This document shows positions 35,397-59,749 of a stretch of DNA of 64,000 bases, piece after piece. Each line of letters starts with the position of its first letter. Positions within the stretch are counted from its first letter, which is position 1. The stretch spans positions 1-64,000 of IMG/VR virus record IMGVR_UViG_3300046171_000328, one strand, 5' to 3'. The notes beneath the pieces were generated by a model that was not told where the DNA came from, did not search any database, and was given only the letters and a program-made list of their open reading frames with translations. This DNA comes from a virus. The translations under genes and the position numbers were made by a program.

Positions 35397-36512
35397 TTAG
35401 GCGTAGGCCTCAACGTATTCCATGCCTAGTTTATAGCCTCTCTGGCGAGTTTTCGCACCACCAGCATAGTAGTTACTCTTGAAGCGTGCTGCTCCAGAGG
35501 ACCCCTGCACATGGCTGGTAAAGTTGGTGATCGTGTTGTAGCCTGCCCAGACTGTGTCCCGCTTGTTCTCTGGCAAAGAACCACGCTCAATGGCAAAGAC
35601 GGAGTACAAGCGTTGGGCAAACTTACGAGAGCGTTGCAGCTTTTCGTAGAAGAAGCTCAGAGCCTCTTCTCTGGCTTCCGGATCTTCGATGGCTTCCAAC
35701 CTGCGAATCTCTGCCGGATTGTTCCACGTCTTGCCTGCGGCACGAAGAAAGTAATTCTCCAAGTCTTCTTCACTGCGGAACTCCACTTCTGACATTCTCC
35801 TAAAGTCACTCTCCATCTGCACCAGATCTTCCGCAGTCTTGATTGCCTTCTCCTGCACATAGGGCAGCACTTCATCAGTGCGACAGGAATATGGAATGGC
35901 AATGTTGTTTTCGTTGAAGCTGACCATGCCGTTGGAGCAAGCCAGTCGCAACGTCACCGGCGAAACATCGATGGTTTCATTGGGGTTGCCATGGCGAAAC
36001 TTGACATGGTAGTACCCGTGAACTTCGTCACCAGCAATCGGCTCCAAAGGCCGGTGATCCATTTTCAGCAGTGCAAAAATGTTGCGGCCTCCATCTAAGG
36101 AACCTGCACCCGCTAATTTGGCATTCAGTTCTTTTTCAAACGGGCTGATCATATCAATCATTTCTGTATTCTGCAGTGGATTGTGAGTGTCCTTGACCAG
36201 ACCCATACGGAAGCCATTGTCTTCACGGCAGAGCATCATCTTGCCCTTGTAGCGTCGATCTGGACCACCACCACCGTATTCATCCCGAATTGGATACTTA
36301 CCCACTTCAAAGCTAAGATCTCGGTTTCCCTTGAGATCTTCGACTGTCAGAGTCTTCACGTTTTGTGTGAAGTTCGAATACTTGCCTTTGAGCAAGTCGG
36401 TTGACTGGCCATGGCTACCATCCGTTTGCTGGTAATCCAGAGACTCATTTCTGATGACAACCGAATTCTTTTCTTCCATCTGGTTGTCGAGTAAATCGGC
36501 GAGTTCGTTCAT
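35397..36512 (-). CDS. DUF932 / phage-plasmid conserved protein
   Basis: 371 residues from the ATG at 36512 (a longer frame to 36626 would overlap the promoter). The central and C-terminal parts (HGYYHVKFRHGNPNETIDVSPVTLRLACSNGMV; YNTITNFTSHVQG) match the DUF932 family, which is widespread on plasmids and phages. The biochemical role of the family is uncertain; links to recombination and antirestriction neighbours have been noted. It is transcribed from a strong promoter at 36574-36603 with a dyad at 36539-36564 in the leader. Confidence 0.7.
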   Translation of the reverse strand: MNELADLLDNQMEEKNSVVIRNESLDYQQTDGSHGQSTDLLKGKYSNFTQNVKTLTVEDLKGNRDLSFEVGKYPIRDEYGGGGPDRRYKGKMMLCREDNGFRMGLVKDTHNPLQNTEMIDMISPFEKELNAKLAGAGSLDGGRNIFALLKMDHRPLEPIAGDEVHGYYHVKFRHGNPNETIDVSPVTLRLACSNGMVSFNENNIAIPYSCRTDEVLPYVQEKAIKTAEDLVQMESDFRRMSEVEFRSEEDLENYFLRAAGKTWNNPAEIRRLEAIEDPEAREEALSFFYEKLQRSRKFAQRLYSVFAIERGSLPENKRDTVWAGYNTITNFTSHVQGSSGAARFKSNYYAGGAKTRQRGYKLGMEYVEAYA

Positions 36513-36538: not shown

Positions 36539-36564
36539 GTTGAACAGTTTTTTCTCTGTTCAAC
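36539..36564 (-). promoter_or_regulatory. Perfect 9-bp dyad at the DUF932 transcription start
   Basis: GTTGAACAG at 36539-36547 and CTGTTCAAC at 36556-36564 form a perfect inverted repeat with an 8-nt T-rich spacer, a few bases downstream of the -10 hexamer. It could be an operator for a dimeric repressor or a 5' stem-loop of the mRNA. Confidence 0.55.
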
Positions 36565-36573
36565 CTAATATCT

Positions 36574-36603
36574 ATTATACCGTTTCCTGAAAAACGAGAA
36601 CAA
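36574..36603 (-). promoter_or_regulatory. Promoter of the DUF932 gene (GGTTGTT class)
   Basis: On the minus strand GGTTGTTC has its -35 hexamer TTGTTC at 36603-36598, followed by an 18-bp spacer and TATAAT at 36579-36574. It belongs to a set of six promoters with the same extended -35 element. Confidence 0.7.
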
Positions 36604-36641
36604 CCCCCTAATTTGCCAAAGAACAAAATAAAATGTCTTTT

Positions 36642-37780
36642 TCAAAACGAGTCGGCAAACTCGTCTCCAAAATTATCTGCTCCATTGAGACGCCGCTGCT
36701 CTTCCAGCCGTTCTTCGCGCATGTTATCAAAGTACTGCGCTCTGTCGAATTGTTCATCATAGGCCCTCTGTCGCTCTTCTATTGGCGGCAGGGCTTTGTG
36801 CCACTTATCAAATGATTCATCACGGATACGGTGGCTTTCAGCAGTTCTGGCGCGAATCTCTTCTATTGTTTCATCCCCAAAGAAAGACTTTGATGGAATA
36901 GGAACTTCAATCCAGAAGTTCTCCGTGGGTCTTGGGTTCCAAGCCCACATCTTCCCTGCCTCTGGTGGTGTCTTGGGTTCCTCTTTTTGGTGGCACTCTC
37001 GACAGCCCATCAGGCTGTTGTACACAATCTTCTCCTGCACCACTGTTGGCTGTTCAGTTTTTGGAGCCGCGCCAGTTCCTGTTCTGGCCTTGATCTCGGT
37101 GACTACAAAGCCGATGAGCTTCTGACCCGTCTTGTTCTCACGCTGGGCATCAAAAAGAATACTCTCTAGTAAGTCAGGACGGTGGGCAATCTGTTGATGC
37201 AGGTTGCGCAAGTGCCCCATTGACTCCTGCACCGCTCCATTCTTGCGACACCAGTAGAGCCAAGACTTCAGCGGAATGTGCTGCTTGGTGGCCAAGTAGT
37301 CTTCAAATGGAATTTCTTTTGATTTACCTTCGCCAGCGTTGCTGGTTGAGTTTTCTTTCAACTCATCTTTAGATGAGTTTGTTTGTGGCTCGACTTGGGA
37401 CACAGTAGTAAGAGTTTTGCGCTTGGCAGGTAGTAGTAGAGCAATCTGGCGCTTCTGGCTGAATTTGGCGCTCTTGCCACTACCAGACTCATACTGGGGC
37501 TTTTCGGTCAAGCGCTTGATCAGTCCAAGCTGCTCCAGTTTCTTCAGAGTCCGTTGAACCGTTTGTCTGGAGCAACGCCAGACACACATCAAGTATTTGT
37601 CTACAAGCGCAGGCGCAGGTTGCGGCGAAGAAAGAATATTTTGGCGAGAGCTTCAGCGCGGAAGTAGAGCCGATCAAATTGCGTTTCCTTGAGGACTGTG
37701 CCGATGGCCGCCTCTCGGTTACGCCACTTGTGGCTTTTGGGCTTTGCGGGAAAGCCACTGGCTAGGGATAGATCCGTCAT
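36642..37780 (-). CDS. Replication-initiator-like winged-helix protein, frameshifted
   Basis: The ATG at 37780 opens MTDLSLASGFPAKPKSHKWR..., which stops at 37601. A different frame continues with PQPAPALVDKYLMCVWRCSR and a clear HTH (SRQTVQRTLKKLEQLGLIKR) and runs to 36642. Adding one A to the four-A run (37642-37639, minus strand) joins them as ...FRAEALAKN/ILSSPQPAP..., giving about 379 residues. The N-terminal winged-helix type start and the C-terminal helical tail with a CxxC pair (GCRECHQ) recall phage and plasmid replication-initiation proteins. The repeat-rich region just upstream supports an initiator or regulator role. Confidence 0.55.
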
Positions 37781-37793
37781 ATGTACTATAAAA

Positions 37794-37863
37794 CGAAAAA
37801 ATGTTTGATTTATTCGGCTTACAGCAATACTTTGGAGTTTCGAAAAAATGTTTGATTTATTCG
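37794..37863. repeat. Two 23-bp perfect direct repeats (iteron-like)
   Basis: The same 23 bp occurs at 37794-37816 and 37841-37863, with start-to-start spacing of 47 bp (close to 4.5 helical turns). Each begins CGAAAAAATG and ends TTATTCG. They lie just upstream of the initiator-like gene, where iterons or autorepressor sites are usual. Confidence 0.7.
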
Positions 37864-37914
37864 ATGTTGCTGTAACTGGTTGCTGCTAAACCGCCAGTTA
37901 TTGCTGTAAGCCGA
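37814..37914. repeat. Perfect 16-bp inverted repeat with nested dyad
   Basis: TCGGCTTACAGCAATA at 37814-37829 is the exact reverse complement of 37899-37914. Inside it a second dyad pairs TAACTGG (37873-37879) with CCAGTTA (37894-37900). Together with the direct repeats this makes a candidate replication origin, partition site or operator in the 304-bp gap between the initiator-like gene and parA. No other gene is seen in that gap. Confidence 0.65.
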
Positions 37915-38027
37915 TGATGAAGGCATGAAGCCGCAACCGCAGACACGACGTGCTACCGTCGTTCTGAACAAGTCGCTGGGGGAGACTGCAATCTTCCCCG
38001 AATGACTTCCTACCGAATGTCTCCTCA

Positions 38028-38057
38028 ATTCTAATCGAATTCAGTCTTTCATAACAA
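38028..38057 (-). promoter_or_regulatory. Leftward promoter (GGTTGTT class) upstream of the initiator-like gene
   Basis: Minus strand: GGGGTTGTTA with -35 TTGTTA at 38057-38052, 18-bp spacer, -10 TAGAAT at 38033-38028. It would transcribe through the repeat region (about 245-nt leader) into the initiator-like gene. Confidence 0.55.
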
Positions 38058-38083
38058 CCCCAAATCTCGCTCTAGGTCCAAAA

Positions 38084-38938
38084 TTGTTCAAAACCATCAC
38101 GATCTCCAACATCAAGGGTGGTTCCGGCAAGACCACTCTGACAGCCCTCCTTGCCTCTGAACTTTCCAAGAAGTCTCCTGTTTTACTAATTGACGCTGAT
38201 CCACAAATGTCTCTGACGAACTGGGCCTTGCACCAGCTAGAAGGGGATGCTCAACGGCAGGCTATCGCTAAAATCGAAAACCATAATCTGTTGAGTGTCT
38301 TTAGAAGCGAGACAACCCTACGGGCTTGTGCGATTGAAGTCAACCCCAATCTGCATTTCATCGCCTCTCACGTCATGCTTGAAAAAGCCAATGAGGAATT
38401 CAAGGATGTGATTGGTCGAGAAATGTTTATCAAGTCTGCTATTTCCGACTTAAACTTCAGTTTGAAAAACGATAATAACGGTCACATTGCATCACATGAC
38501 AACGGCAAAAACGGTAAAAACGGCAATAACGGTAACATTTTAATTGACACCGCTGGCGATATTGGTTTATTAGCTATTATGTCATTGGCGGCGTGTCAAA
38601 CGAGTTTGATACCCGTCGCGACCAACGTGATGAGCATTCAAGCCTTGGGTTTATCCTTGCAGAGAGTTGAGCAGGTCCAACGATCACTGAACTCTGGACT
38701 AAACAAAGTTATGATTGTTCCGAGCTTGTTTACCCGAACTCGGAAGTCTCATCAGCAATGCTTAGAAGAGCTAAAAAAGGACTATTCGGAGCTTTTGCCA
38801 TTGGACAAGAGTAACGAAGTTGTCACGATCTTAAACCGCGCTGAGATTGAGAATTTTATTCATGAGTCCCAGCATAATCTGTCCAAAAACTCTGACGTAA
38901 TGGAGTCTATCGAAACCATCATTGAGTACTTAGATTAA
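38084..38938 (+). CDS. parA: ParA-family partition ATPase
   Basis: 284 residues from TTG 38084, with TAGGTCC upstream (a very similar AAGGTCCAAA precedes the glycosylase gene at 41018). It shows the deviant Walker A KGGSGKTT (about 11-18), LLIDADPQMSLTNW (Walker A' region, about 35-48) and Walker B ILIDTAGD (about 149-156). ParA ATPases segregate low-copy plasmids and phage-plasmids. An odd feature is an Asn/Gly-rich insert (residues about 126-148, NGKNGKNGNNGN) just before Walker B. A terminator-like hairpin follows the stop. A rare TTG start may keep its level low. Confidence 0.85.
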   Translation: MFKTITISNIKGGSGKTTLTALLASELSKKSPVLLIDADPQMSLTNWALHQLEGDAQRQAIAKIENHNLLSVFRSETTLRACAIEVNPNLHFIASHVMLEKANEEFKDVIGREMFIKSAISDLNFSLKNDNNGHIASHDNGKNGKNGNNGNILIDTAGDIGLLAIMSLAACQTSLIPVATNVMSIQALGLSLQRVEQVQRSLNSGLNKVMIVPSLFTRTRKSHQQCLEELKKDYSELLPLDKSNEVVTILNRAEIENFIHESQHNLSKNSDVMESIETIIEYLD

Positions 38939-38962
38939 AATCAGGTAATTCGGGCCTGATTT
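38938..38962 (+). terminator. Terminator-like hairpin after parA
   Basis: AAATCAGG at 38938-38945 pairs with CCTGATTT at 38955-38962 (8 bp, 9-nt loop) and is followed by an AT-rich stretch. It separates parA from the next gene. Confidence 0.55.
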
Positions 38963-39082
38963 ATATTTATAACTATATGATATTATTATATTAATTGGAG
39001 ACATCCGGAGATTTTCATAGTCTATTTACATGAGATGACTCAAGACTGTAAAACTATGCAATTCTTTAAAAGGAAAAGAGAT

Positions 39083-39820
39083 ATGAAAAAAAAAGGTATT
39101 AACACTCTGGCAAGCGGGAATCTTGCTCTAGCTCACAAGCATGAGTTCGTCAAGGCTAGCGTTGAGGTCACTGATCTCAAGCCCATCGATGAGCTAGTCG
39201 GCTCAATCAACGAGAATTTGAGTGCAGTTCAGAATCGCAAACGAACGATTCTATTAGACCTGCTTTATCTCCATCAGCATTGGGATGAGTACACTCGTCA
39301 AAAGGGCATGGAAAAGTATCAGGGCGACTCTGGCCTATATAAGTTTTTGCACGACAAAGTGCCCCAGAATTCAAGCACGTCTCATGCAGATGTGAAGATT
39401 GTTCGACTGCTGGCGGTGATGCGCAAGGGCCATCTGCTCTCGCAAGAAACCAACCGAATTGGAAGCCTCAAGAGAATTGCCTACATATCCAACCGACGCA
39501 ATCCGGATGATGCGGATAAACTTCGCAAGGAGCTACTGGACGAACTACCGAATCTGACGAATCAAGAAGTTCGTGATCGAATCGATCAATACAACCGAGA
39601 TAAAGGAGAGCCGGTTACCGTCAGAAGAAGGTCCAACAGGCCCTTTGAATTGGCGATCAATCCACAAAGAGGGAAAGTCCTAATCAAGGAAATGGACCCA
39701 GACACTGCCAAAAAAGTTGGTAAGCTGCTGGAATACATGACACCACAGCGCATCGACGAGCTTCTTGAGTTTCACATCAATCAAGAAGAAACTCCGCTGC
39801 TGGTTCAAAGACAGGGATGA
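39083..39820 (+). CDS. ParA partner / ParB-like candidate
   Basis: 245 residues from ATG 39083, preceded by AAAGGAAAAGAG. It is basic and helical throughout. Its C-terminal part (NRPFELAINPQRGKVLIKEM, then KKVGKLLEYMTPQRIDELLEF) resembles the dimerisation end of some plasmid ParB or KfrA-type proteins, but I see no certain ParB nuclease box. Position directly after parA is the main argument for a DNA-binding partition partner. An AT-rich stretch at 38965-39000 upstream could hold its promoter or a centromere site. Confidence 0.5.
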   Translation: MKKKGINTLASGNLALAHKHEFVKASVEVTDLKPIDELVGSINENLSAVQNRKRTILLDLLYLHQHWDEYTRQKGMEKYQGDSGLYKFLHDKVPQNSSTSHADVKIVRLLAVMRKGHLLSQETNRIGSLKRIAYISNRRNPDDADKLRKELLDELPNLTNQEVRDRIDQYNRDKGEPVTVRRRSNRPFELAINPQRGKVLIKEMDPDTAKKVGKLLEYMTPQRIDELLEFHINQEETPLLVQRQG

Positions 39821-39853
39821 CTTAACCTAAACCACATGTTCTTGTGATCAATC

Positions 39854-39878
39854 ACTTATACCACAATTGGGTATAAGT
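39854..39878. terminator. Bidirectional terminator-like hairpin
   Basis: ACTTATACC at 39854-39862 pairs perfectly with GGTATAAGT at 39870-39878 (9 bp, 7-nt loop). A second weaker hairpin pairs GGAGCG (39889-39894) with CGCTCC (39911-39916). They lie in the 105-bp gap between two convergent genes, where terminators are expected. Confidence 0.5.
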
Positions 39879-39924
39879 CCTCGCTGAAGGAGCGTGGCAT
39901 TTTCTTGCTGCGCTCCCTCCACAC

Positions 39925-40482
39925 TCACGCTTTTACTTTCCAAAAGCAATTTTCTTTAGAGTATGGTTTCGACCTGTCAATACACCGCAGAGTCGTGTTT
40001 TCGGGCCTCTCTCCCATGTCTCTGAGAAAGTTATTGAACCCTCCTTGACCCTTCCATTCCTCGCAGACCGTGTTTCTGGCGGTCATAGCGTGCCAACAGG
40101 TGTGCATAGGCGTTGGCTTGCCGGTTGTTTTGTCAATACGGTGACCATGAGTGGTATCACCTCTGACTGTTCTATTGTAGCAATTCTCTCGTCGAGTGGC
40201 CCAGCGGATGTTGTTAATGTAGTAATTACCCTTGTTGTCTGGGTATCGATCCAAATCACAAAGTTTTCCGGTCGCTTCATCGATTGGTGGTTCTCCCAAC
40301 CTTGCTCCAACTTCGTTGATAAAGTTGGTACATGCAACTCTGCTATCAACAATTCTGTTGTCCCAGTGATCATGAGTCTTGACGTGCCCATAATATTGAT
40401 GATCGTATTTCAGTCGAGCCATCATACGGTTCCACTTATTCCCAAGTGGAGTCTTGATCAGTTCTGCCAAAGTCTTTTCCAT
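39925..40482 (-). CDS. Homing-endonuclease-type DNA-binding protein without nuclease domain
   Basis: 185 residues; AGGAG lies upstream of the ATG. It carries two copies of the module 'F..d.G.rP......l.R.d....Y...NirWat/CfWkv' (TNFINEVGARLGEPP ... NIRWATRRENCYN; FNNFLRDMGERPE ... PYSKENCFWKV). The same module occurs three times behind the GIY-YIG domain of the gene at 59807. It begins HNH/AP2-like (KWNRMMARLKYDHQYYG). I see no intact catalytic motif, so it may be a degenerate homing endonuclease or a DNA-binding regulator. It is driven by the promoter at 40520-40548. Confidence 0.6.
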   Translation of the reverse strand: MEKTLAELIKTPLGNKWNRMMARLKYDHQYYGHVKTHDHWDNRIVDSRVACTNFINEVGARLGEPPIDEATGKLCDLDRYPDNKGNYYINNIRWATRRENCYNRTVRGDTTHGHRIDKTTGKPTPMHTCWHAMTARNTVCEEWKGQGGFNNFLRDMGERPENTTLRCIDRSKPYSKENCFWKVKA

Positions 40483-40519
40483 GTTGTCTCCTGAGTGGTT
40501 TTAAACGATTTCAGCTTCC

Positions 40520-40548
40520 ATTTTATTAAAGCCGAAAAACGGAAACAA
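40520..40548 (-). promoter_or_regulatory. Leftward promoter (GGTTGTT class)
   Basis: Minus strand: -35 TTGTTT at 40548-40543, 17-bp spacer, -10 TAAAAT at 40525-40520, about 38 bp from the start codon of the DNA-binding protein gene. It belongs to the same promoter set as the others. Confidence 0.6.
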
Positions 40549-40567
40549 CCCACTTTCTCAAAACATC

Positions 40568-40702
40568 GATAAGATGTGTACCATCTTGATACGCATCTTG
40601 GGACCGACCCAGAGTGCAGGCATAAGACTGTGTAACACCTTGAGACACATCTTAGGGGCCGTCAGGAAGTGCTTTGGTAATACTGTGACTCACTTTGAGC
40701 AA
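40568..40702. repeat. Three degenerate direct repeats, period about 55 bp, each with an internal dyad
   Basis: Units start near 40568, 40621 and 40678. Units 1 and 2 share ATAAGA, TGTGTA.C, CTTGA.AC.CATCTT and a distal GACC/GGCC...AG.GTGC. Unit 1 has the dyad AAGATG ... CATCTT and unit 2 TAAGA ... TCTTA. Unit 3 keeps only TACTGTGA and CTTTGAGCA. They lie between divergent promoters and could bind a regulator. Confidence 0.5.
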
Positions 40703-40709
40703 CAATAAA

Positions 40710-40910
40710 ACTCCCTAAAGGGAGTAGAAATATAACCAACCCAGCATAAAAGCTGGGGTTGGAGATCGGGGGAGGACCGCCGTGGAGGTGGTGATAACTG
40801 CGTTGGCCACCATAGCCCCGTGACCGCATTGCATTCGTACCCTTGGACGCGATCCGGAAAGGTCCAATTCAAGGTCCGGACGGCAGGCACTGTTATCACC
40901 TTAACTTTTT
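40710..40910 (+). ncRNA. Candidate structured RNA locus
   Basis: This GC-rich intergenic stretch has several strong helices: ACTCCC-TAAA-GGGAGT (40710-40725), CCAACCCAGC pairing with GCTGGGGTTGG (40736-40762, one bulge) and a closing helix GGTGATAAC (40790-40798) with GTTATCACC (40892-40900). The last encloses about 93 nt that can fold a TGCGT/ACGCG stem and a TCCGGA/TCCGGA stem. A T5 run follows at 40906-40910. No credible protein frame and no tRNA features are present. Strand is chosen from the T-run after the closing helix. The function is unknown. Confidence 0.45.
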
Positions 40911-40914
40911 GGGG

Positions 40915-40944
40915 TTGTTTTCAATTACGCCATTGACATATAAT
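40915..40944 (+). promoter_or_regulatory. Promoter of the glycosylase-thyX operon (GGTTGTT class)
   Basis: GGGGTTGTTT has its -35 TTGTTT at 40915-40920; an 18-bp spacer leads to TATAAT at 40939-40944, about 73 bp before the ATG at 41018. Confidence 0.7.
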
Positions 40945-41017
40945 AGCAGTAGTAATTGAATTTCATTTTCTGGCAACAAAGCCAAAATCACAATCCAAAC
41001 TACCATCAAAGGTCCAA

Positions 41018-41764
41018 ATGAATATCTTCTTCACCGATCCGAATCCAGAAAAAGCCGCTATGGCGCTCTCAGACAAACATGTAGTCAAAATGCTGACCGA
41101 GAGTGTCCAGATGCTTTGTACGGCTCACCACATGGCCGGTAGCGCCACAGATGCGATGATGCTACCAGCCTACGCCAATCATCCCTGCAACGTCTGGGTG
41201 CGAGAGAGCTTGAGTAACTACGAATGGCTCTTTGATCATGCCACAGCGATCTACTACGAATACAAAGAGCGCTACAATGGCAAAATCCACAAATCTGGTC
41301 AGGTCCTCGCCCACTTGATTGACCCACCAAAAAACATTCCGGACAAAGGCCTTACTCCGCCAGCGCAAGCGATGCCAGCTTACTTTCGTGAAGCAGGAGC
41401 CTGTGGCGCTTACCGGCGCTACTATGCTCTGGGCAAGAACCACATCTGTAGCTGGGAGCGCTCACCGAATGGCACACCCAACTGGATCACCAAGCTGCGT
41501 GACGAAGAGTACTATTTCTACCCACTTGGAGAGCGTTATCATCTGCTCGACAACACTGGTGACACCAAGCGCTTTGAGGCCGTGACGCCAATCTACTTGC
41601 CAATTTCCTCAACCTCCATCAGTTTTGAAGGCGAAATCGCAACACTCAAAAGGCATCCAGAAGTCTGCCCGAACGAGACAAGCCTGATGCTTCACGGTGG
41701 ATTGCTGCGCAAAATCAACGGGCATCCAGCGAGTGTCTTTGAAGATGAAGGAGAATTTGCATGA
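41018..41764 (+). CDS. Pyrimidine-dimer DNA glycosylase-like protein
   Basis: 248 residues, ribosome site AAGG. The start MNIFFTDPNPEKAAMALSDK, then HVVKMLTESVQML and YANHPCNVWVRESLSNYEWL, is the conserved pattern of phage and bacterial proteins annotated as pyrimidine-dimer DNA glycosylases. The later RRYYALGK and SWERSPNGTPNW strands are also typical, and the C-terminal about 60 residues are variable. Such enzymes would repair UV damage in phage DNA. Its stop overlaps the start of thyX (ATGA), so the two are coupled. Confidence 0.7.
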   Translation: MNIFFTDPNPEKAAMALSDKHVVKMLTESVQMLCTAHHMAGSATDAMMLPAYANHPCNVWVRESLSNYEWLFDHATAIYYEYKERYNGKIHKSGQVLAHLIDPPKNIPDKGLTPPAQAMPAYFREAGACGAYRRYYALGKNHICSWERSPNGTPNWITKLRDEEYYFYPLGERYHLLDNTGDTKRFEAVTPIYLPISSTSISFEGEIATLKRHPEVCPNETSLMLHGGLLRKINGHPASVFEDEGEFA

Positions 41765-42417
41765 ATACTGTTGAATTGTTGAAATGTGTTGGCAGTGATG
41801 AAGACATTGCCAGTGCAGCGTGGACCTCTAGCACACTGACACTGACCGAGGAACGCAGGGAGCGAGTACCGGCGTTAGTGCATCAACTCTATCGGGAAGG
41901 CCATCACAGCCCGTTTGAACATTCACTGTTGAGCTTTCGTTGTGTTGTTGACAACTCCACACACGTTCAGCTACTCAAACATCGAATTGGTGTGAGCTTC
42001 AATGTGGAGAGTGCCCGATACCGAGCCTATCGGGAAGACAAGACCTACATTCCTGCCGATGCCCCTGAAGAGCTTCAGGAGATGATCAGAAGGGCTTCGC
42101 TGGAATCTTGGGAACGCTACCACTACATCGTGAATAATCACGATGTGATGGGCCTGACTCGCTCCAGAGCAAAGGAGATTGCCAAGTACATGCTTCAGTT
42201 TTCTTCCCAAGTTGAAATGGTGATCACTTTCAATTTACGAAGTTTCTTTCACTTTCAAGGGCTGAGAAACAGCACTCACGCTCAGATGGAAATCCGTGAA
42301 GTTGCACAGGCCATGCGAAATCAGGTTGAGGAAACCAACCAGTTTCGCCATGCGCTGGAAGCCTACGATCTGGTTCATAAAGTGGGAGTTGATCAGAACG
42401 ACAACCTTCAAAAATAG
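41761..42417 (+). CDS. thyX: Flavin-dependent thymidylate synthase ThyX
   Basis: 218 residues, a normal ThyX length. The signature region reads KHRIGVSFNVESARYR at about 73-88, matching RHRxxSxNxxSxR with Lys for the first Arg. FEHSLLSFRC (about 51-60) and the C-terminal FHFQGLRNSTHAQMEIREVA (about 160-180, FAD/dUMP site) are also classical. The enzyme methylates dUMP using FAD and methylenetetrahydrofolate and supplies dTTP for phage replication. It is translationally coupled to the upstream glycosylase gene. Confidence 0.92.
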   Translation: MNTVELLKCVGSDEDIASAAWTSSTLTLTEERRERVPALVHQLYREGHHSPFEHSLLSFRCVVDNSTHVQLLKHRIGVSFNVESARYRAYREDKTYIPADAPEELQEMIRRASLESWERYHYIVNNHDVMGLTRSRAKEIAKYMLQFSSQVEMVITFNLRSFFHFQGLRNSTHAQMEIREVAQAMRNQVEETNQFRHALEAYDLVHKVGVDQNDNLQK

Positions 42418-42425
42418 GACTACTT

Positions 42426-43035
42426 ATGAGTAATTCACTGGCACGCATGAATGATCTGTTGGAGAAGAACCCCAAGGCCTGCAGCTTGGTTACTCTCTGA
42501 GGGAACAGACAGCTTCAAGGATTCACTGATGGATCAGTGGCTACGCAAGGGCTTTCTCTCACCCAAGCAGTGGGCTGCTGCAGAGCGCAACGCTGATCGT
42601 GTTGATAAGCCCAAAGCCAAGGGAGAAAATAAGCAGGAAGAGCGCTTAGAACTAATTAAGATCATGTCCTTGTTTGCAGCGACGGAAGGCAAGCTGAAGA
42701 ATCCAAAATTTCGATACAAGGGATTGCGCTTTAAGAAAGTCACACATGGCAACCATGCCGGCAACGTGTTTATTGACCGAGGAGAATTTGGGACTTCGAT
42801 TGGTAAAATCAATCAAGAGCGCTACCTGATTCCGTTTCGGGGAATGAAGGATGAGGATCTGGAAATCATCAAACAACTGGAAAAAGACCCAGTGCATGAG
42901 CTTTCCATGGATGGTAAGGAGCTTGGAACCTGTCGCTATTGCTCCAAAGAGCTTGAGGATGAACGTAGTGTGAGTGCGGGGTACGGGCCAGTGTGTGCTG
43001 TACGTTGGAATCTCCCGTGGGGAGATGAACGTTGA
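42426..43035 (+). CDS. DUF6011-like zinc protein, frameshifted near its start
   Basis: AGGA precedes ATG 42426, which reads MSNSLARMNDLLEKNPKA and then stops. The +1 frame continues AAWLLSEGTDSFKDSLMDQW to 43035. Removing one C from CC at 42478-42479 joins them as ...NPKA/AAWLL..., about 202 residues. The C-terminus CRYCSKELEDERSVSAGYGPVCA is the DUF6011 zinc-binding pattern (CxxC ... GYGPVC). A DNA-binding or adaptor role is possible. It forms one operon with thyX. Confidence 0.6.
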
Positions 43036-43328
43036 ATCCCTACTTTCGTGTAAGCCTCAATCTGCCGGTCCAGCTTGGCCGGCGAAACTATGTGATTTCC
43101 ACGCTGGTGGATGTCTTCACTCAGGAAGAGCGCTGGCGTTACGAGTTTTTATGGTTGGAAGTCATTGATATGGAAGGAGAGCAGACGTGGGTCTGTCGAG
43201 TGCTGGAGCGCTTGGGTAGCTGTGGTCGCAGAAACCTAGATGGTGACTTTTTGGTGGAGTTGATTCGTCCGAAAGTGCGGGAGATGGTGACGGGTAAGTT
43301 CATTGAAGAACTGAAGAAGGCTAGTTGA
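43032..43328 (+). CDS. Small unknown protein
   Basis: 98 residues starting at TTG 43032, overlapping the previous stop (TTGA). It begins MNPYFRVSLNLPVQLGRRNY and has a beta-rich first half (YVISTLVDVFTQEERWRYEF) and a helical end. No family recognised. Translational coupling to the zinc protein is likely because of the overlap and rare start. Confidence 0.5.
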   Translation: MNPYFRVSLNLPVQLGRRNYVISTLVDVFTQEERWRYEFLWLEVIDMEGEQTWVCRVLERLGSCGRRNLDGDFLVELIRPKVREMVTGKFIEELKKAS

Positions 43329-43462
43329 GAACCCCTGCATCCTGACAAGTTTAGGCGCTTAAAGGAAGCAGGGGCCTTTGCCAAAGAAACTACAACGAAA
43401 TAATCATCTATGCGCCGGTATCAAGAGCGCAGATGAAATAGAACACCCAACGGGTAGGTGTG

Positions 43463-43485
43463 AGGCCCACGATCAATGTGGGCCT
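43463..43485. terminator. Hairpin between convergent operons
   Basis: AGGCCCAC at 43463-43470 pairs perfectly with GTGGGCCT at 43478-43485 (8 bp, 7-nt loop). There is no long T-run. It lies in the 372-bp gap (43329-43700) between the thyX operon and the oppositely oriented PAS gene. A second possible stem pairs CCCCTGC (about 43333) with GCAGGGG (about 43367). I see no gene in this gap. Confidence 0.45.
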
Positions 43486-43700
43486 TGGCTCCATGCCACT
43501 AACTGAGATGATATATTGCCCCCCAATATTTCAGAACAGGCAATGATCCGAATAGTAATGAATTCCAAAAAAAGTTCAATTGTATTTTTCATTGCTGGAA
43601 AACGCAGATACAGTTTGGTTGTTCGTTAAGGCCCATTATCAAACTCATCCATTAGTATTAGCTAACCAGCTTTGAACATCTCAACTGTTCAAAGTTCTGC

Positions 43701-44447
43701 TTAATTTGCCTGCCAAGTCCAACCCTCAATCGCAATCAAGTTATCCTCCTCATCTCGGACTGCAAAACAGTCTGAATTCATTTCAACCACTTCTCCTGTG
43801 TCTTGGCGAATACATCGATAGTTTCTCAGTTCAACTCTCTGTTCGCCATGAACCAGTTTCAACCGCTGCTGTTCAATCCACTGGCGATCATCGATATGTA
43901 CATAGTGATGTAAATAATATTCGTAAGGCGTGTCTTTGTCCTCAAGAACGCCGTACATCGCTTTGATTTCATCCGAAATATAATCAAATTCCATTTTGAT
44001 TAGATTCAATCTCCAACGTGAAAGTGGTCTATATTCTTTTTTTGATTCAGAATCCTTCACTCGCTTCAGAACTCCGCGCAGTCCATGAACCTGACCTGTA
44101 TCTTCGTCAAAAACCGGAATCACGCGATCACTAATTGTGATGATTTGGCCGTTGTCTGGGCGAATCCAGCGATGAATGAGGGTGTCTTCTTTAGCATGAT
44201 CTGAGTTAATCATTTTTTTCTGATGTTCAACTACACGCAATCTATCTTCAGGGTGTGTCTGCTGAAGGAAGAGCGCGTCATTGATGTCTTCTAATTGCCC
44301 CCAGTCGTTATATTTACTGTATTTTTGAGGTAGTCCAAGAATCGTGACGCAATCAGTATTAATCACGCTAAAGCGACTTAGTTCAATGTCGTAATACCAC
44401 TTACCTTCAAGGTGCTGGTGGTCTTCAAAGCTGATGTAGCCTGTCAT
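43701..44447 (-). CDS. Double-PAS protein without output domain
   Basis: 248 residues. Two PAS_3-type units are visible. Unit 1 is about 15-130 (WYYDIELSRFSVINTDCVTIL ... HPEDRLRVVEH ... HRWIRPDNGQI...GLRGVLKRV). Unit 2 is about 145-245 (WRLNLIKMEFDYISDEIKAMYG ... YVHIDDRQWIEQ ... YRCIRQDTGEVVEMNS...AIEGWTWQ). The protein ends with the second PAS fold, so no kinase, GGDEF or HTH output is attached. PAS domains bind ligands or partners; here it could sense a metabolite or modulate a host PAS protein. A related gene lies just upstream. Confidence 0.75.
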   Translation of the reverse strand: MTGYISFEDHQHLEGKWYYDIELSRFSVINTDCVTILGLPQKYSKYNDWGQLEDINDALFLQQTHPEDRLRVVEHQKKMINSDHAKEDTLIHRWIRPDNGQIITISDRVIPVFDEDTGQVHGLRGVLKRVKDSESKKEYRPLSRWRLNLIKMEFDYISDEIKAMYGVLEDKDTPYEYYLHHYVHIDDRQWIEQQRLKLVHGEQRVELRNYRCIRQDTGEVVEMNSDCFAVRDEEDNLIAIEGWTWQAN

Positions 44448-44457
44448 GCGGAGAGTT

Positions 44458-44485
44458 TGTATAGAAAGCCGATGGAAGATGTCAA
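44458..44485 (-). promoter_or_regulatory. Promoter of the double-PAS gene
   Basis: Minus strand: TTGACA at 44485-44480, 16-bp spacer, TATACA at 44463-44458, about 11 bp from the ATG. It lacks the GGTTGTT element, so this gene may be regulated differently from the early set. The short leader leaves little room for a ribosome site (GGAG is present just before ATG). Confidence 0.4.
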
Positions 44486-44608
44486 TCTATGACATTAATG
44501 GTGGGGGTGAACGTCATGTTGTTACCGGTGGGTGTGTCATTGGCTATTTATAAGTCAAATTACTATTGAAGCACAAGACTAGATAACAAATAATTACATT
44601 TAGTGTAG

Positions 44609-45040
44609 TCAATTTTGAGCGTACATCGTAATGCCTCGAAACCCGATTAATTCTTTATTTGCGTTCTCGACTCGGTAGACGAGAGAACTTAACATTTTGA
44701 TTTCGCCGGTGTCCTGCTTGATGATCCTGTGATTCCAATTAATTGGCGACTCGCCGCTGATCAGCCGCATTCGAATCTGCTCAATCAATGCTTGATCTTC
44801 AAGATAGACGTAATCATATAAAAATTGCTGATAACTGACTTCAGAGCCTCTGGGGATTCCATAGATGTCATAGCTCTTGTTTCCCAAAGCGCTGAATTCC
44901 ATGTTGGTGAGATCTAAAAACCATCCGCCAGCGCCAGCAAACTCTTCAAGCGTGTCGAGGAGAATTTGATTCTCTCGCTCAACTGACATCGAAGTAGTGG
45001 TTTTGAACCTGAATTTTTCGTCGATTTGGTCGAGTGTCAT
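44609..45040 (-). CDS. Single-PAS protein without output domain
   Basis: 143 residues from the ATG at 45040; an upstream TTG at 45124 would add an AT-rich, hydrophobic stretch that looks like promoter DNA. It contains one PAS_3 unit: GGWFLDLTNMEFSALGNKSY (beta strands A-B), YDYVYLEDQALIEQ (helix region, cf. 'HPED'), WNHRIIKQDTGEIKMLSS and the final ELIGFRGITMY strand. It resembles the neighbouring double-PAS protein, suggesting duplication. No signal peptide, membrane segment or effector domain is present. Confidence 0.7.
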   Translation of the reverse strand: MTLDQIDEKFRFKTTTSMSVERENQILLDTLEEFAGAGGWFLDLTNMEFSALGNKSYDIYGIPRGSEVSYQQFLYDYVYLEDQALIEQIRMRLISGESPINWNHRIIKQDTGEIKMLSSLVYRVENANKELIGFRGITMYAQN

Positions 45041-45860
45041 TTTTGATTTCTCATAAAATTCAAAAAAAAGACGTACATTTTCAAAAAAAATTATGCTAAT
45101 AAGTACATTTTTTAGGTTATCCAATAAAGATGAATATATTCAACAGTTTAGATATTTATTTTCTGATAGCGAGAAAAAATGTTTCAAGAGTGTCTCAATT
45201 TCATCTGGTTAATGAATATTTTAAGAAACCAGTTTAATTGCAATTCAGTTGTTTAATTACTGCTTTTGTTACAAACAATAAACAAGAATCGATAGTACAG
45301 CTTCTAAAACAATGTTTCAAGACTCTTTGTGACAGATTGTGACACAAAAAAACGTTGCAATGTAGTTTCAGAGGGTTAATATCGACTTTCATTTTACGGA
45401 AAAGACATGATGTTTTTTTTCACAGAGCATGGAGCAAATCATTAAAAATAGCGCAGTAGGCCTTCCGCGCTTTATGAAGTGAGTCCTTAAATGATACTCC
45501 AAGACATCCAAGCGTTAGCGGCTTCTGCAATGTCCCGCCAGCACAGCTACCCTCTGGGGAGCTTGATGGTAACACGCAGTGTCTGTCAAGTTTATCCCTA
45601 CAAGTTGGGAGGTCCATCGTTTGGGTGGATTACAACAAATTTCAACTGGTTTTCTGGATACTACGACCTATCTACTTGTGCGCAGATCCGGCGTCACGTT
45701 GACTTTAAATTTTTCTACCGCCTTTTCATGCTCTTCCCCTTATTCAAGTAATTTACAAAATCACTCTCAACTCTTGAGTTGGGCCGCAGGGATTTTTAAA
45801 CATTACTTGAGTAAACTATTGCAAAAGCAAAACACGTCAAAGTGTGAATTCTGTAATATC

Positions 45861-45884
45861 AGCCGACGAGCGCAGCGCTCGGCT
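45861..45884. terminator. Strong GC-rich hairpin
   Basis: AGCCGACGAGCG followed by CAGCGCTCGGCT folds into a near-perfect stem (AGCCGA/TCGGCT outside, GAGCGC/GCGCTC inside), followed by ATTTAT. It is likely a terminator or the 3' end of a structured transcript. Confidence 0.5.
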
Positions 45885-46022
45885 ATTTATCTGGCAACTA
45901 GATCATATAATTCTTTCGGACTATTCCTGAGTCGCTATTCCAAGCGATTTAGCAGAATTCTTCATCCTGTCAACTACAACTCTCCTCACATTCGCTGGTT
46001 TTCGCCATTTTGAAAAAGTGGG

Positions 46023-46052
46023 TTGTTCCGATACTTCAAACAGTGAGATAAT
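46023..46052 (+). promoter_or_regulatory. Promoter of the recombination module (GGTTGTT class)
   Basis: TGGGTTGTTC: -35 TTGTTC at 46023-46028, 18-bp spacer, -10 GATAAT at 46047-46052, about 68 bp before the first ATG at 46121. Confidence 0.7.
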
Positions 46053-46120
46053 AGTTCCCATGGCTATGACTATGGGCTATTATTGATCGTTTTATAACAC
46101 CCCCGTTCAGGATCAATAAA

Positions 46121-46315
46121 ATGGCAAGTAATTCCAATATTCGTCTAGCCTACTCCAACGGTAGCACAATCTCCCAAAAAGCCGCTGACAAGGCTTCTGA
46201 GAATCGCTTTTTGGAAGCATGTGCATATATTTTAATGATTGATGAAGGATATTCACCGAGGGATAAGATATGCCAGCTAGACAGTTTACTCCCGAAGAGA
46301 GAGCGAAAAAGATAG
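46121..46315 (+). CDS. Small protein ahead of the YqaJ exonuclease
   Basis: 64 residues (MASNSNIRLAYSNGSTISQK ... LEACAYILMIDEGY), the first frame after the promoter at 46023. It overlaps the exonuclease gene by 46 bp. The ribosome site is weak. The helical segment ASENRFLEACAYILMID looks protein-like. No family recognised. Confidence 0.45.
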   Translation: MASNSNIRLAYSNGSTISQKAADKASENRFLEACAYILMIDEGYSPRDKICQLDSLLPKRERKR

Positions 46316-47244
46316 GAGCCAGTGACATTCCGATTATGCTCGGAATGTCAAAATTCAGAACTCCGATGGAACTGCTACACGAAAAGAAAGGGGAAGCGGT
46401 CCCATCTGAGGTTGGCAATGCTGCCATCTGGGGAACCTACCTTGAGCCGTTCGTTTGCGAAATAGCGGAGAAAGAAAAAGGCTTCAAACTCCGTCAGGTA
46501 CATAAGCAGGTAGTTCATCCGAAAATGAACTACTTCGGTTGTCACCTAGACCGCAAAATTTCAGGCACACCTACCACCAACGTTGAAATCAAAACGCTAA
46601 CCACTCGCACACGCAGCGAGTGGGATTCCAACGAAAACCAGCTTCCAGACCATTATTACATGCAAGTGCAAGCTCAGATGGCTTGTGATCTCAAGTTGAC
46701 ACACACACTGGTCATTGGAGCAATTCTGGACTCCAGAGAGTTGATCTATCGAATGATTCCCCGTGATGAAGAAACGATTGAGTTCATTGAAGCCGAGGTG
46801 AAATTCTTCTGGGAAGAGTGTGTACAAGGGATTTCCAGACCGAGAAACTTACGCTACGATGACTACAAGGATACATATTTCAGCCGTGAAAGCGCTGATT
46901 ATGTGGATGGTGACGATATGGGCCTGTTACTTGACATGGCCAACCTGAAAGCTCAGAAAAGCTCTCTGGAGACAGAGATTTCAAGAATGGAAGAGAAGAT
47001 AGCTGAGAGAATGGCGGCTGTTGATGAACTGCAAGCGACAGATGAAACGTGGCTGGCAAGATTTCGCCCGATGGAAACCAAGCGTTTAAATGTTAAGCGC
47101 TTGCGTGAAGACCATCCGTCTCTCTGCAAAGACTACACTGAAGTTACTGAGAAACGATCCCTACGGTTAAACCTCAAAGCCATCCGTGAAAGTTATGTCG
47201 TATCGAACGAGCGACAGGCCGAAACAGCACAAACTCTAAATTAG
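46270..47244 (+). CDS. YqaJ-family viral recombinase/exonuclease
   Basis: 324 residues, ribosome site GAGGG. The YqaJ nuclease pattern is present: GASDIPIMLGMSKFRTP (about 17-33), WGTYLEPFVCE (about 57-67), GCHLDRK (about 94, catalytic Asp) and NVEIKT (about 106, E-x-K) followed by YMQVQAQMAC (about 131-140). The C-terminal about 100 residues are a coiled coil and tail. These enzymes resect double-stranded DNA ends 5' to 3' for single-strand annealing recombination. It is followed by its likely annealing partner. Confidence 0.85.
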   Translation: MPARQFTPEERAKKIGASDIPIMLGMSKFRTPMELLHEKKGEAVPSEVGNAAIWGTYLEPFVCEIAEKEKGFKLRQVHKQVVHPKMNYFGCHLDRKISGTPTTNVEIKTLTTRTRSEWDSNENQLPDHYYMQVQAQMACDLKLTHTLVIGAILDSRELIYRMIPRDEETIEFIEAEVKFFWEECVQGISRPRNLRYDDYKDTYFSRESADYVDGDDMGLLLDMANLKAQKSSLETEISRMEEKIAERMAAVDELQATDETWLARFRPMETKRLNVKRLREDHPSLCKDYTEVTEKRSLRLNLKAIRESYVVSNERQAETAQTLN

Positions 47245-47248
47245 GGGG

Positions 47249-47277
47249 TTGTTCCCATACTTCAGCTTTGAGATAAT
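47249..47277 (+). promoter_or_regulatory. Promoter upstream of the Sak4-like gene (GGTTGTT class)
   Basis: GGGGGTTGTTC: -35 TTGTTC at 47249-47254, 17-bp spacer, -10 GATAAT at 47272-47277; the ATG follows at 47342. It shows strong similarity over the whole spacer to the promoter at 46023 (shared CATACTTCA / GATACTTCA). Confidence 0.7.
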
Positions 47278-47341: not shown

Positions 47342-48049
47342 ATGGCAAATCCATTCAAAAAAGCCAGCAAAGAGTCTGGCACTTGGGCCAGAGTGCTGAT
47401 GGCTGGACCATCCGGCACAGGAAAGACGTACTCAGCGTTGCAGGTAGCTTCTGCGTTGGGCAAAGTGGCTTTGATCGACACCGAGTTTGGCTCTGCAAAG
47501 AAGTACGGTGACAAATTTCAATTTGACTGCGTTGAGTTGTATGGTGGCTACACCACTGAAGCTCTGATTGAAAACATCAATGCTGCAGTAGAGAACAAGT
47601 ATTCAGCGCTGATAATCGACAGCTTCTCCCACTTCTGGGAAGGCGACGGTGGCATTCTGGAATTTGTAGACATCGAAAAGGCTGGTGAGGCCAAGAACAA
47701 CATGAACGCTTGGGGCAAGGCTAGCCCGAAATGGCGTCAGCAAATTGCAGCAATGCTGAGAGCGCCGATTCATTTGATTGTGACCTGCCGTACTAAGAAT
47801 GCGGTGGAAGCTACCAATGTCAATGGGCGAATGCAGGTCAAGTCGGTTGGGACCAAGGTTGTGCAGCGGGAAGGCTTCGAATACGAATTAGACATGGTCG
47901 CAAATTTTCGCATTGAAGACGGTCTGAACCTCTGTCACATCGAAAAAACCCGTTGCTCTGACTTGCATGGCCAGACGTTCAAAAACCTCAATGCTGAACA
48001 CCTCATGCCCTACTTTAAATGGTTGGGTATTATTTCTGAAACTAAATAA
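47342..48049 (+). CDS. Sak4-like RecA-fold ATPase (single-strand annealing)
   Basis: 235 residues, ribosome site AAGGCGAG. Walker A GPSGTGKT (about 21-28), LIDTEFGSAKKYGD (about 44-57) and Walker B ALIIDSFSHFW (about 91-101) match the phage ATP-binding/Sak4 family, a minimal RecA-like core. Sak4-type proteins anneal single strands together with an SSB, and both neighbours fit: YqaJ exonuclease upstream and an SSB-like protein downstream. The module should perform recombination-dependent repair or replication of phage DNA. Confidence 0.82.
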   Translation: MANPFKKASKESGTWARVLMAGPSGTGKTYSALQVASALGKVALIDTEFGSAKKYGDKFQFDCVELYGGYTTEALIENINAAVENKYSALIIDSFSHFWEGDGGILEFVDIEKAGEAKNNMNAWGKASPKWRQQIAAMLRAPIHLIVTCRTKNAVEATNVNGRMQVKSVGTKVVQREGFEYELDMVANFRIEDGLNLCHIEKTRCSDLHGQTFKNLNAEHLMPYFKWLGIISETK

Positions 48050-48061
48050 CAGGGCTGTAAA

Positions 48062-48802
48062 ATGGCTTACATGGACTATGATTTCAACGCTCTGGGGGAT
48101 GCTCCAGACACTCCGAAAAAACCTCAGTTTGAAGATGGTTTTTATCATGTTCAAATCGTGGACGGCATCATCAAGGGACCGAGTGAGAAGGGTTCAACTG
48201 GCGTAATGCTGACTTATGCCAATCTGGAAAATCCAACGATGCGCATCAATGATTATTTTATGATCAAACACACTCGCGTCAATTCTCCTGATCCTGAAGA
48301 AGCCAAGATGTACATGCGCCTGATTGATGAGCGGATGAGGGACTTGCAGCGAGTGTCAGCGTTGGTTGACCTGCGCGATCCCAACGGCAATCCGAGGACG
48401 GCACAGGACACCAATGAGTTGATTGGTCACAACATCGTGATCAAGGTCAAAACCAAGCCGTCCAAGAATCCTGATTTTCCAATTGATCGGGACGTGAAGG
48501 GGCGCTACAAGTCTTCAGATTGGCCAAAATACTCTTCGATGAACAGCTATCCTGCCATCAATCCACAGCCAACGAGCGCTGCTTCCAGCAGCTACGGCTT
48601 TGGCCAAGACCGCGCCGGTAATATTCCGACTCAATTGCCAAGCGGCAACCCTCCAGCGGTCTTTCCTAATGACCCTCCAGCCAATGCGCCTCATCCATCC
48701 GTCACAGGTACTGGAATTGACGGGAATTCAGGCCATGCGATGAACAATTCAATGAGCAATGGAAACAATGCTCCATATGTCGAAGACGATGTTCCGTTCT
48801 GA
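48062..48802 (+). CDS. DUF669-like single-stranded DNA-binding protein
   Basis: 246 residues. The N-terminal domain (FEDGFYHVQIVDGIIKGPSE ... VMLTYANLENPTMRINDYFM) has the DUF669/SSB-like beta pattern encoded next to Sak4 genes. A Ser/Pro/Asn-rich linker leads to an acidic tip ending EDDVPF, which mimics the bacterial SSB tail that recruits repair proteins. It should coat ssDNA and cooperate with the annealase. A strong terminator follows. Confidence 0.7.
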   Translation: MAYMDYDFNALGDAPDTPKKPQFEDGFYHVQIVDGIIKGPSEKGSTGVMLTYANLENPTMRINDYFMIKHTRVNSPDPEEAKMYMRLIDERMRDLQRVSALVDLRDPNGNPRTAQDTNELIGHNIVIKVKTKPSKNPDFPIDRDVKGRYKSSDWPKYSSMNSYPAINPQPTSAASSSYGFGQDRAGNIPTQLPSGNPPAVFPNDPPANAPHPSVTGTGIDGNSGHAMNNSMSNGNNAPYVEDDVPF

Positions 48803-54766: not shown

Positions 54767-55748
54767 TAGAAATACGAGAGTCAAACGACCTGAAGGAACA
54801 AAGGACGTGCTGCCGGCGGATGTTCAGAAAAGCAACACGGGCAAGAAGGCCAAGCGTGATGCTTCACAGGCAACTGCAAATCAGCATGGTGAAAACAGCC
54901 CTGACAAGGTTTCGCAACTGCAGGTAGTTCAACTGAAGAGTCTGTGGGATCTCAACATTACAATGAAAGAGATCAGCGCTAGATTAGGCTGGGGGATGAA
55001 AAAGATTTATCGCATCGCCGAGGCCTATAATTTCCCCAAAAGACAACGCATTCAATCGCCCGAATCAATGGACCCGAATGGGCCTGAACTGACGAAGTTT
55101 CGACAGCTTTGGGAGCAAGGTGTACCCAGAGCAGAGATTGAGCTAATCATGGGCTGGCGTGAAAACTATGTATCCAAAGCTAAAAAAAGGCTTGGGTTGC
55201 CAAACCGGCGCGACAATGGGGGAGTTTCTGGATCAAACCTTCAGGGAGCAAGACATCTAGAGCCGGAAGAAGCGGCGGTCATTATACGAGAAGAGGACGA
55301 GACAAGCCGACACATTGAACACATCATGACGGGGCCGCTGGATGAGCGAGGCCGTCAAAGCCTCAGAAGTTTTGAGGTTAGTAACATCCGTGCTTTGGCT
55401 GAAGATGAGTTTGGCCGACAGCTTGAGCAAACCGATGCTTTGGAGCGTCTTGCTTGGGAATGTATTGATGTGATGGGACGGACCAGAGGAGAGATCGCTG
55501 CTTTTGACGATGAAGAATCGCTACTGAAGAAAACTCAATTGATTAAGGGCGCAACAGAGCTTATTCAAAAGTCGATGGAACATCGACGCAAACTGCTCCG
55601 TGTGGATGATGCGACTCAAGGAGAATCTGAAGGAGATATGTTCAATATCGACTTTGTTGCGGCGGCTAAAGAAGGTGGCCTGAAGTTCCAAGATCCCATT
55701 CCAAAATACACTGACGATCTAGATTTCGAAGCTGATGACAGTTACTAG
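54759..55748 (+). CDS. Terminase small subunit candidate with tandem HTH
   Basis: 329 residues from ATG 54759. A basic N-terminus (NTRVKRPEGTKDVLPADVQK) precedes two HTH units of the same type: LKSLWDLNITMKEISARLGW (about 63-82) and FRQLWEQGVPRAEIELIMGW (about 113-132). The rest is helical and acidic, with a C-terminal tail that could bind the large subunit. It overlaps the large terminase gene start by 14 bp. Gene order and the tandem DNA-binding domains support a role in recognising the packaging site; the sequence family is not certain. Confidence 0.6.
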   Translation: MASRNTRVKRPEGTKDVLPADVQKSNTGKKAKRDASQATANQHGENSPDKVSQLQVVQLKSLWDLNITMKEISARLGWGMKKIYRIAEAYNFPKRQRIQSPESMDPNGPELTKFRQLWEQGVPRAEIELIMGWRENYVSKAKKRLGLPNRRDNGGVSGSNLQGARHLEPEEAAVIIREEDETSRHIEHIMTGPLDERGRQSLRSFEVSNIRALAEDEFGRQLEQTDALERLAWECIDVMGRTRGEIAAFDDEESLLKKTQLIKGATELIQKSMEHRRKLLRVDDATQGESEGDMFNIDFVAAAKEGGLKFQDPIPKYTDDLDFEADDSY

Positions 55749-56667
55749 AATTCGCAGTCGAGGACAAGAAGCGATTCACCGGTTCTATACGGAATACGTC
55801 AGTCGTTATGCTGACGATCCAATGCGCTTTTGTCAAGAAGCATTGAGTTTTGAACCAACCTTCCAACAGACTGAATTAATTGAAGGAATTCGAGAAAATA
55901 AGCGCTGTGTCTGTAGGGCAGGTCATGGTGTGGGAAAAACAAAAGCTACGTCTTCTATTATCCTCTGGTGGATCACTACAAGGCCCTTCAGCCGAGTTTT
56001 AGCAACCAGTCCGAACATCTCCATTCTCCACAAAGTTCTCTGGCCTGAACTAGCAGCAGGCTTTTACGAGCTATGCCAGAAATTCCCTCCGATGCCATCC
56101 CTTTTTGGAATTACCCGCACCACATTTTATCAAGTGCAACATGCGCAACGCTGGTTTGCAGTGGCCAGAACCAGTGGCAAGGGCCGCTCTCAGGGCATTG
56201 CAGGTCAACACGCTGAACACTTTTTGTGTGTGGTTGAAGAAGCCAGTGCAGTCGAGGAAGAGGTGTTTGAGGTACTGGATGGAGCGCTCACTGGTGGTCC
56301 TGAAAACAAGCTGATCATGGTAGGGAATCCAACGCAGAACCATGGCCGATTCTATGATGCGTTTCACTCCAAGGCTGATGGCTATTTGAAGCTCCATTGG
56401 AACGGTGAAGAATCGCCGCTGGTCAATGAAGACATGATCAAACTGTTTCAGGAAGAGTACGGTGTCGGCAGCCGAGAGTACGACGTAAGAGTCAAAGGAG
56501 AATTCCCCGAAGAAAATTTCAGGAATGCTTTTGGGCCACAGCGAAATTTCAGCAATGGAAACCAATGTTGTGGAGCATCAGACGCCACCAATGAAAATCA
56601 TCTCTGTGGACGTGGCTGGATCAGGTCGAGACTCCAGCGTGATCATGGTGCTACGAGTGTCTGGTGA
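55735..56667 (+). CDS. terL: Terminase large subunit, ATPase part (frameshifted gene)
   Basis: The ATPase motor has Walker A RAGHGVGKT (about 60-68), VLATSPNISILHKVLWPEL, SQGIAGQHAEHFLCVVEEA (Walker B with EE at about 169-170) and the coupling motif LIMVGNPTQNHGRFYDAF. After VKGEFPEENFRNAFG the frame turns to nonsense (QRNFSNGNQCC...) because of one extra base in TTTTGGG at 56529-56535; the real frame continues in the nuclease part ending at 57313. The full protein would be about 525 residues. It pumps DNA into the prohead with ATP. Confidence 0.85.
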   Translation: MTVTRIRSRGQEAIHRFYTEYVSRYADDPMRFCQEALSFEPTFQQTELIEGIRENKRCVCRAGHGVGKTKATSSIILWWITTRPFSRVLATSPNISILHKVLWPELAAGFYELCQKFPPMPSLFGITRTTFYQVQHAQRWFAVARTSGKGRSQGIAGQHAEHFLCVVEEASAVEEEVFEVLDGALTGGPENKLIMVGNPTQNHGRFYDAFHSKADGYLKLHWNGEESPLVNEDMIKLFQEEYGVGSREYDVRVKGEFPEENFRNAFGPQRNFSNGNQCCGASDATNENHLCGRGWIRSRLQRDHGATSVW

Positions 56668-59735: not shown

Positions 59736-59749
59736 AACGAGTCTTGTTT

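Follow-up and report, generated by a model that had tools for sequence, protein, structure and literature searches.

An invariant eight-nucleotide box at the -35 position of six early promoters of an orphan phage

Six promoters in a phage genome carry the same eight-nucleotide box, GGGTTGTT, at the position of the -35 element. They lie in bases 1-64000 (the window) of the 68,522-bp IMG/VR virus record IMGVR_UViG_3300046171_000328 and make up a real, sharply delimited class of promoters in one orphan phage, placed ahead of early genes that belong together. Systems of this kind are known; the motif and the phage lineage are new, and so, probably, is the regulator. For a lineage without close relatives in the collections searched, the box offers a sharp entry point to the control of early genes.

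Six promoters with one invariant box

The six sites were read directly on their strands and then re-measured, and all were found where an initial annotation of the sequence had placed them (Table 1). They are intergenic, with three on each strand. In 6/6 sites an exact GGGTTGTT stands 18-19 nt ahead of a TATAAT-like -10. The annotation had described the element as GG(G)TTGTT; the shared box is real, but its invariant word is the 8-nt GGGTTGTT, one letter longer, preceded by GG, TG or GT. With TTGTTN counted as the -35 hexamer, the spacers of promoters 1 to 6 are 18, 18, 17, 18, 18 and 17, in agreement with the 17 or 18 reported. TTGTTN resembles TTGACA in TTG only, which supports the annotated view of a shared element at -35 outside the normal sigma-70 consensus. 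The box is not a palindrome, and it is invariant at all six sites while the -10s vary. It is confined to 36.5-47.3 kb, as expected from the annotated restriction to the early/plasmid-like region. Every site had also been placed upstream of a gene start in the correct direction. For five, ~31-67 nt separate the predicted transcription start from the start codon, but the site at 38059 (-) is ~242 nt from the replication gene (rep), which is itself frameshifted in the record.

The six-site observation is real and far beyond chance. The pattern GGGTTGTT-N18/19-[TG]A[TAG]AAT occurs 6 times in the record, whereas 100 first-order Markov sequences contain none. At the corresponding place ahead of a -10, no hexamer other than GTTGTT (6 vs 0.2 expected) reaches 4 copies, and GGGTTGTT is the most repeated 8-mer at promoter spacing in the window (6 times). 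Among 106 other viral (phage) loci (1.45 Mb), the top repeated 8-mer at -10 distance reaches 3 copies in one locus and at most 2 elsewhere. A matrix built from the six sites, as the annotation had proposed, was scanned over the record; this is circular for the six sites (26.7-32.8 bits), but not for the gap beneath them. The next independent scores are 14.2 bits, inside a gene, and 12.7 bits, intergenic at 59742, so the outcome that the annotation had named as refuting, equally frequent hits inside late coding regions, did not occur. The box is thus the same site at several promoters, non-coding, beyond chance and absent as a class elsewhere.

Exact GGGTTGTT is present 10 times in the record (2.2 expected overall). 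Six copies fall between genes, each with a -10 in register, and the remaining four (260, 29205, 59725 and 62413) are in coding DNA. The intergenic density exceeds the coding density 22-fold for the exact word and 1.9-fold when one mismatch is allowed, and none of five one-mismatch intergenic boxes is in promoter register. The element behaves in an all-or-none manner. Because GGTTGTT by itself is only about twofold over-represented (17 vs 9.0) and a generic sigma-70 scan stays at background (22 vs 18.4 expected), the case rests on the combination of box, register and location. Only one of the six sites is listed by the generic scan, so a search by consensus would, on its own, have overlooked the group.

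Table 1 Box promoters and the genes behind them. Gene families are profile matches.
Feature	Position	Strand	Box and -10, or profile match	Gene(s) served
Promoter 1	36574..36606	-	box 36599-36606, -10 TATAAT 36574-36579	DUF932 gene 35397-36512
Promoter 2	38028..38060	-	box 38053-38060, -10 TAGAAT 38028-38033	rep, start 37780
Promoter 3	40520..40551	-	box 40544-40551, -10 TAAAAT 40520-40525	HNH endonuclease gene
Promoter 4	40912..40944	+	box 40912-40919, -10 TATAAT 40939-40944	Pyr_excise-like gene, thyX, two further open reading frames (ORFs)
Promoter 5	46020..46052	+	box 46020-46027, -10 GATAAT 46047-46052	small ORF and recE-like exonuclease
Promoter 6	47246..47277	+	box 47246-47253, -10 GATAAT 47272-47277	Sak4-like ATPase and SSB genes
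DUF932 / TIGR03299-like phage/plasmid protein	35397..36512	-	Pfam PF06067 7.5e-13; TIGR03299 6.1e-19, below TIGR03299 cut-off	
Replication protein (DnaD-like/initiator, winged helix), frameshifted	36642..37780	-	PHROG 186 3.5e-06; PHROG 1032 6.8e-05	
HNH endonuclease	39925..40482	-	PHROG 374 3.1e-18	
Operon: Pyr_excise-like, ThyX, DUF6011 protein, 98-aa ORF	41018..43328	+		
64-aa ORF and RecE-like exonuclease	46121..47244	+	PHROG 434 4.1e-58	
Sak4-like ATPase and SSB-like protein	47342..48802	+	PHROG 1366 5.1e-63; PHROG 124 4.9e-11; PHROG 378 3.8e-05	

The recognised genes behind the box all belong to DNA metabolism (DUF932, rep, HNH, glycosylase/ThyX, RecE and Sak4/SSB). The annotated claim of a coordinated regulon stands in part: the downstream set is coherent, consisting of DNA metabolism only, and is a putative regulon. 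The box is absent at parA and its neighbour (parAB), at two PAS proteins and at the head, tail and packaging genes.

Similarity among the sites extends beyond the box. The upstream regions, which are A/T-rich, are more alike than random window stretches (p about 0.004 over 27 nt and 0.002 over 10 nt), as are the 5' parts of the spacers (p about 0.001). AAATTAGGGGGTTGTTC is common to the sites at 36605 and 47247, and TTTTGARAAAGTGGGTTGTT to those at 40550 and 46021; the spacers of these four approximately follow YCNRTWYTTC. The pattern suggests that GGGTTGTT is the core of a longer site, with A/T-rich DNA upstream and YC-N-RTWYTTC in the spacer of four sites. The upstream halves pair promoters 1/6 and 3/5 and the spacer halves 5/6 and 1/3, so selection on separate contacts fits better than duplication of whole promoters.

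Relatives, candidate hosts and searches for a regulator

Queries of IMG/VR with RecE, primase, ThyX, terminase, Pyr_excise and a five-member ATPase profile returned no genome with the module or the boxes. The ATPase query found no relative among GTDB contigs, and megablast of 24 kb found none among GenBank phages, where no stretch similar to promoters 5 and 6 was detected either. DNA pattern scans of IMG/VR matched unrelated DNA only (10 copies of one phage coding stretch and 12 scattered singles), and no contig carried several boxes. Among the papers listed for GGTTGTT and phage promoters, none was relevant.

Proteins of the window were assigned by PHROG, Pfam and TIGR profile matches. None of the scanned proteins was recognised as a sigma factor, a subunit of RNA polymerase, a phage RNA polymerase or a known immunity repressor. 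No PHROG or Pfam match names MotA or AsiA; no direct search for them was made, and a diverged or short one could escape. A homologue of P1 C1 was sought by phmmer and blastp against all 548 stop-to-stop frames of at least 50 aa, with nothing significant, and P1 Lpa was ruled out, with no match in any frame. Structure predictions for the protein at the ParB position and for a 154-aa orphan (pLDDT 46 and 39) were too poor for use. A modest set of orphan early proteins probably includes the regulator.

A gene for a TRAP transporter solute-binding protein (DctP) lies at the record end (L001:3759-4520, +), 2 bp past a tail gene, and represents either an auxiliary gene or host flank. Its best protein matches are in three marine metagenome-assembled genomes (55-61% identity), all from one phylum, possibly SAR324, from which we took 52 genomes (about 200 Mb) as candidate hosts; the host is not proven. 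Tetranucleotide usage supports this assignment weakly (r 0.41). In these genomes GGGTTGTT-N18/19-KADAAT occurs 39 times, 0-4 per genome, and part of the occurrences are the same coding gene in several species. The count is somewhat above a crude reversed-pattern control (9). The density is about 0.2 per Mb, as compared to about 88 per Mb in the phage. In three candidate-host genomes, TTGTTNN-N17-TATAAT was found once, against 3 reversed controls. TTGACA-type promoters are above control in candidate hosts (81 vs 47). Since the box is rare in these genomes, it is not likely the standard -35 of the host, with the proviso on host identity given above.

Factors that may read the box

Our leading reading, held tentatively, is that the six sites are sigma-70-type promoters switched by one dedicated -35-binding factor, most likely phage-encoded and more likely an activator. 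The asymmetric GGGTTGTT would replace the -35 at the promoters of one early gene set. The factor would bind the box from a fixed position, the host polymerase would read the -10 alongside it, and replication, recombination and nucleotide genes would be switched together. We favour this reading because register and orientation are fixed in 6/6 sites, the residual -35 is poor (TTG only) and the gene content fits. While a dedicated, phage-encoded factor is what we infer from these features, activation (class-II-like or MotA-like) is only slightly favoured over repression. The initial annotation had named an activator or an altered RNA polymerase. The shared -35 element is in line with either, but the polymerase is less likely, because the proteins scanned include neither a recognised phage RNA polymerase nor a recognised sigma factor. 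A bolder version appears rather unlikely to us, namely that an unrecognised phage protein family reads GGGTTGTT at a fixed register and in this way replaces -35 recognition by the host polymerase, a new case of sigma appropriation in an uncultivated phage possibly infecting SAR324. If true, it would add one more phage protein that re-aims the host polymerase to a list that is short so far.

Several points weigh against a dedicated activator. No activator candidate was found among the proteins scanned, and two orphan proteins were modelled at low confidence. The register carries limited weight, since it would be equally fixed for a repressor whose operator itself contributes the TTG of the -35. 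MotA accepts altered boxes but depends on a strict -10 (PMC2988021), the reverse of what is observed here. Finally, a promoter ahead of a second HNH endonuclease gene (59744-59772, +) reads TTGTTT-17-TATAAT without GGG directly in front, so plain sigma may read TTGTT here. GGGTTGTT is present ~16 nt farther upstream of it, inside the end of the preceding ORF.

Two activator systems offer a comparison. The middle genes of phage T4 comprise replication, recombination and nucleotide genes. The T4 middle promoters, at which MotA/AsiA appropriate sigma, share with the six promoters a phage box in place of the -35, a retained host -10 and this type of gene content. The T4 MotA box, (a/t)3TGCTTtA, replaces the -35 on early/middle genes; its centre is at -30, and 12+/-1 nt separate it from the -10 (PMC2988021). 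The distance here is 18-19 nt in 6/6 sites, unlike the MotA spacing, and a tolerant box with a strict -10 in T4 contrasts with an invariant box and a variable -10 in our set. In lambda, CII acts from an asymmetric direct-repeat site at the -35 of promoters with a poor -35, which resembles the arrangement here. The CII site differs in its TTGC-N6-TTGC repeats, its targets are lysogeny genes, and no CII homologue was recognised here.

A repressor operator, which the initial annotation did not name, is a serious rival. The box would then be the dispersed asymmetric operator of a prophage master repressor placed over the -35, and the repressor, bound in the lysogen, would close all six of the lytic early promoters, much as C1 does in P1 and MrpR in SPbeta. 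We regard this as a real possibility, although we lean away from it. The phage is probably plasmid-prophage-like: ParA and Rep suggest a plasmid prophage, the first half of the terminase is remotely P1 PacB-like, and no other immunity repressor was recognised in the window. P1, a plasmid prophage, carries 22 dispersed asymmetric 17-bp C1 operators, ATTGCTCTAATAAATTT, at lytic gene promoters, some of them overlapping or touching the -35 (PMC8546580). The SPbeta repeated element (SPBRE), a 15-bp motif repeated over early-gene promoter regions of a temperate phage, was described in silico as a promoter motif and turned out, 24 years on, to be what the repressor MrpR binds. MrpR is not an obvious helix-turn-helix repressor (PMC10516654). 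However, the host and motif of SPbeta are different, and no tyrosine-recombinase-like protein was recognised here. The P1 operator also differs in sequence from GGGTTGTT and its flanks, and the C1 search was negative. Across the P1 stretches with annotation, the gap between operator end and -10 ranges from 2 to 24 nt and both orientations occur, whereas the boxes keep one register and orientation throughout; this shifts the weight towards a -35-replacing factor. Moreover, the record contains no free-standing intergenic box, and the -35 left for sigma is poor. If the repressor explanation is true, the box would reveal the immunity switch of a plasmid-prophage-like phage without recognisable repressor.

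The remaining explanations do without a dedicated factor. The host's sigma, or another host sigma, could read GGGTTGTT as a -35, making the six sites an intrinsic promoter class. The promoter at 59744, the best box-less one in the phage, has the same TTGTTT-17-TATAAT layout, no TTGACA-17-TATAAT promoter stood out in the phage gaps, and host identity is uncertain. Against this stand the candidate-host counts given above, both for the box pattern and for TTGTT- as opposed to TTGACA-type promoters, and the absence of the box from the late genes of the phage, and we consider an intrinsic class unlikely. Recent spread of one promoter cassette through recombination, with no common regulator, seems very improbable. 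Pairs of sites do share 15/20 upstream nt or 9-10/12 spacer nt, but the shared halves form a mosaic in which the box alone is invariant, and the sites are on both strands with unrelated outer flanks.

Leaders and neighbouring genes

A common RNA structure in the six leaders was ruled out, as leader 1 alone (z -2.5) is better folded than its shuffled versions, and an Rfam element was rejected as well. Right behind the point where transcript 1 is predicted to begin, at 36539-36564, is a perfect 9-bp inverted repeat, GTTGAACAG/CTGTTCAAC; the remaining leaders have no such structure in common. A 27-bp imperfect inverted repeat (81%, 37814-37914) is present in the long rep leader downstream of promoter 2, possibly an origin or copy-control structure. 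Between the divergent promoters 3 and 4, a 360-bp stretch without gene of note (40551-40911) contains several inverted repeats (40570-40654) and may be a centromere or an origin. The reading frame of rep changes near 37600-37645, placing the N-terminus and the winged-helix part in different frames, which may come from a sequencing error or from disruption of the gene itself.

Only ~24 nt separate the TTG start of parA from the box of rep's divergent promoter (38053-38084), so that the box may also affect parA; no clear ribosome-binding site precedes this start. Two adjoining PAS-only phage proteins, with two and one domains (43701-44447 and 44609-45124, -), are encoded in the prophage-like region, and no output domain was recognised in either. 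The terminase large subunit is distributed over two ORFs in different frames with an overlap of ~140 nt (55735-57313, +).

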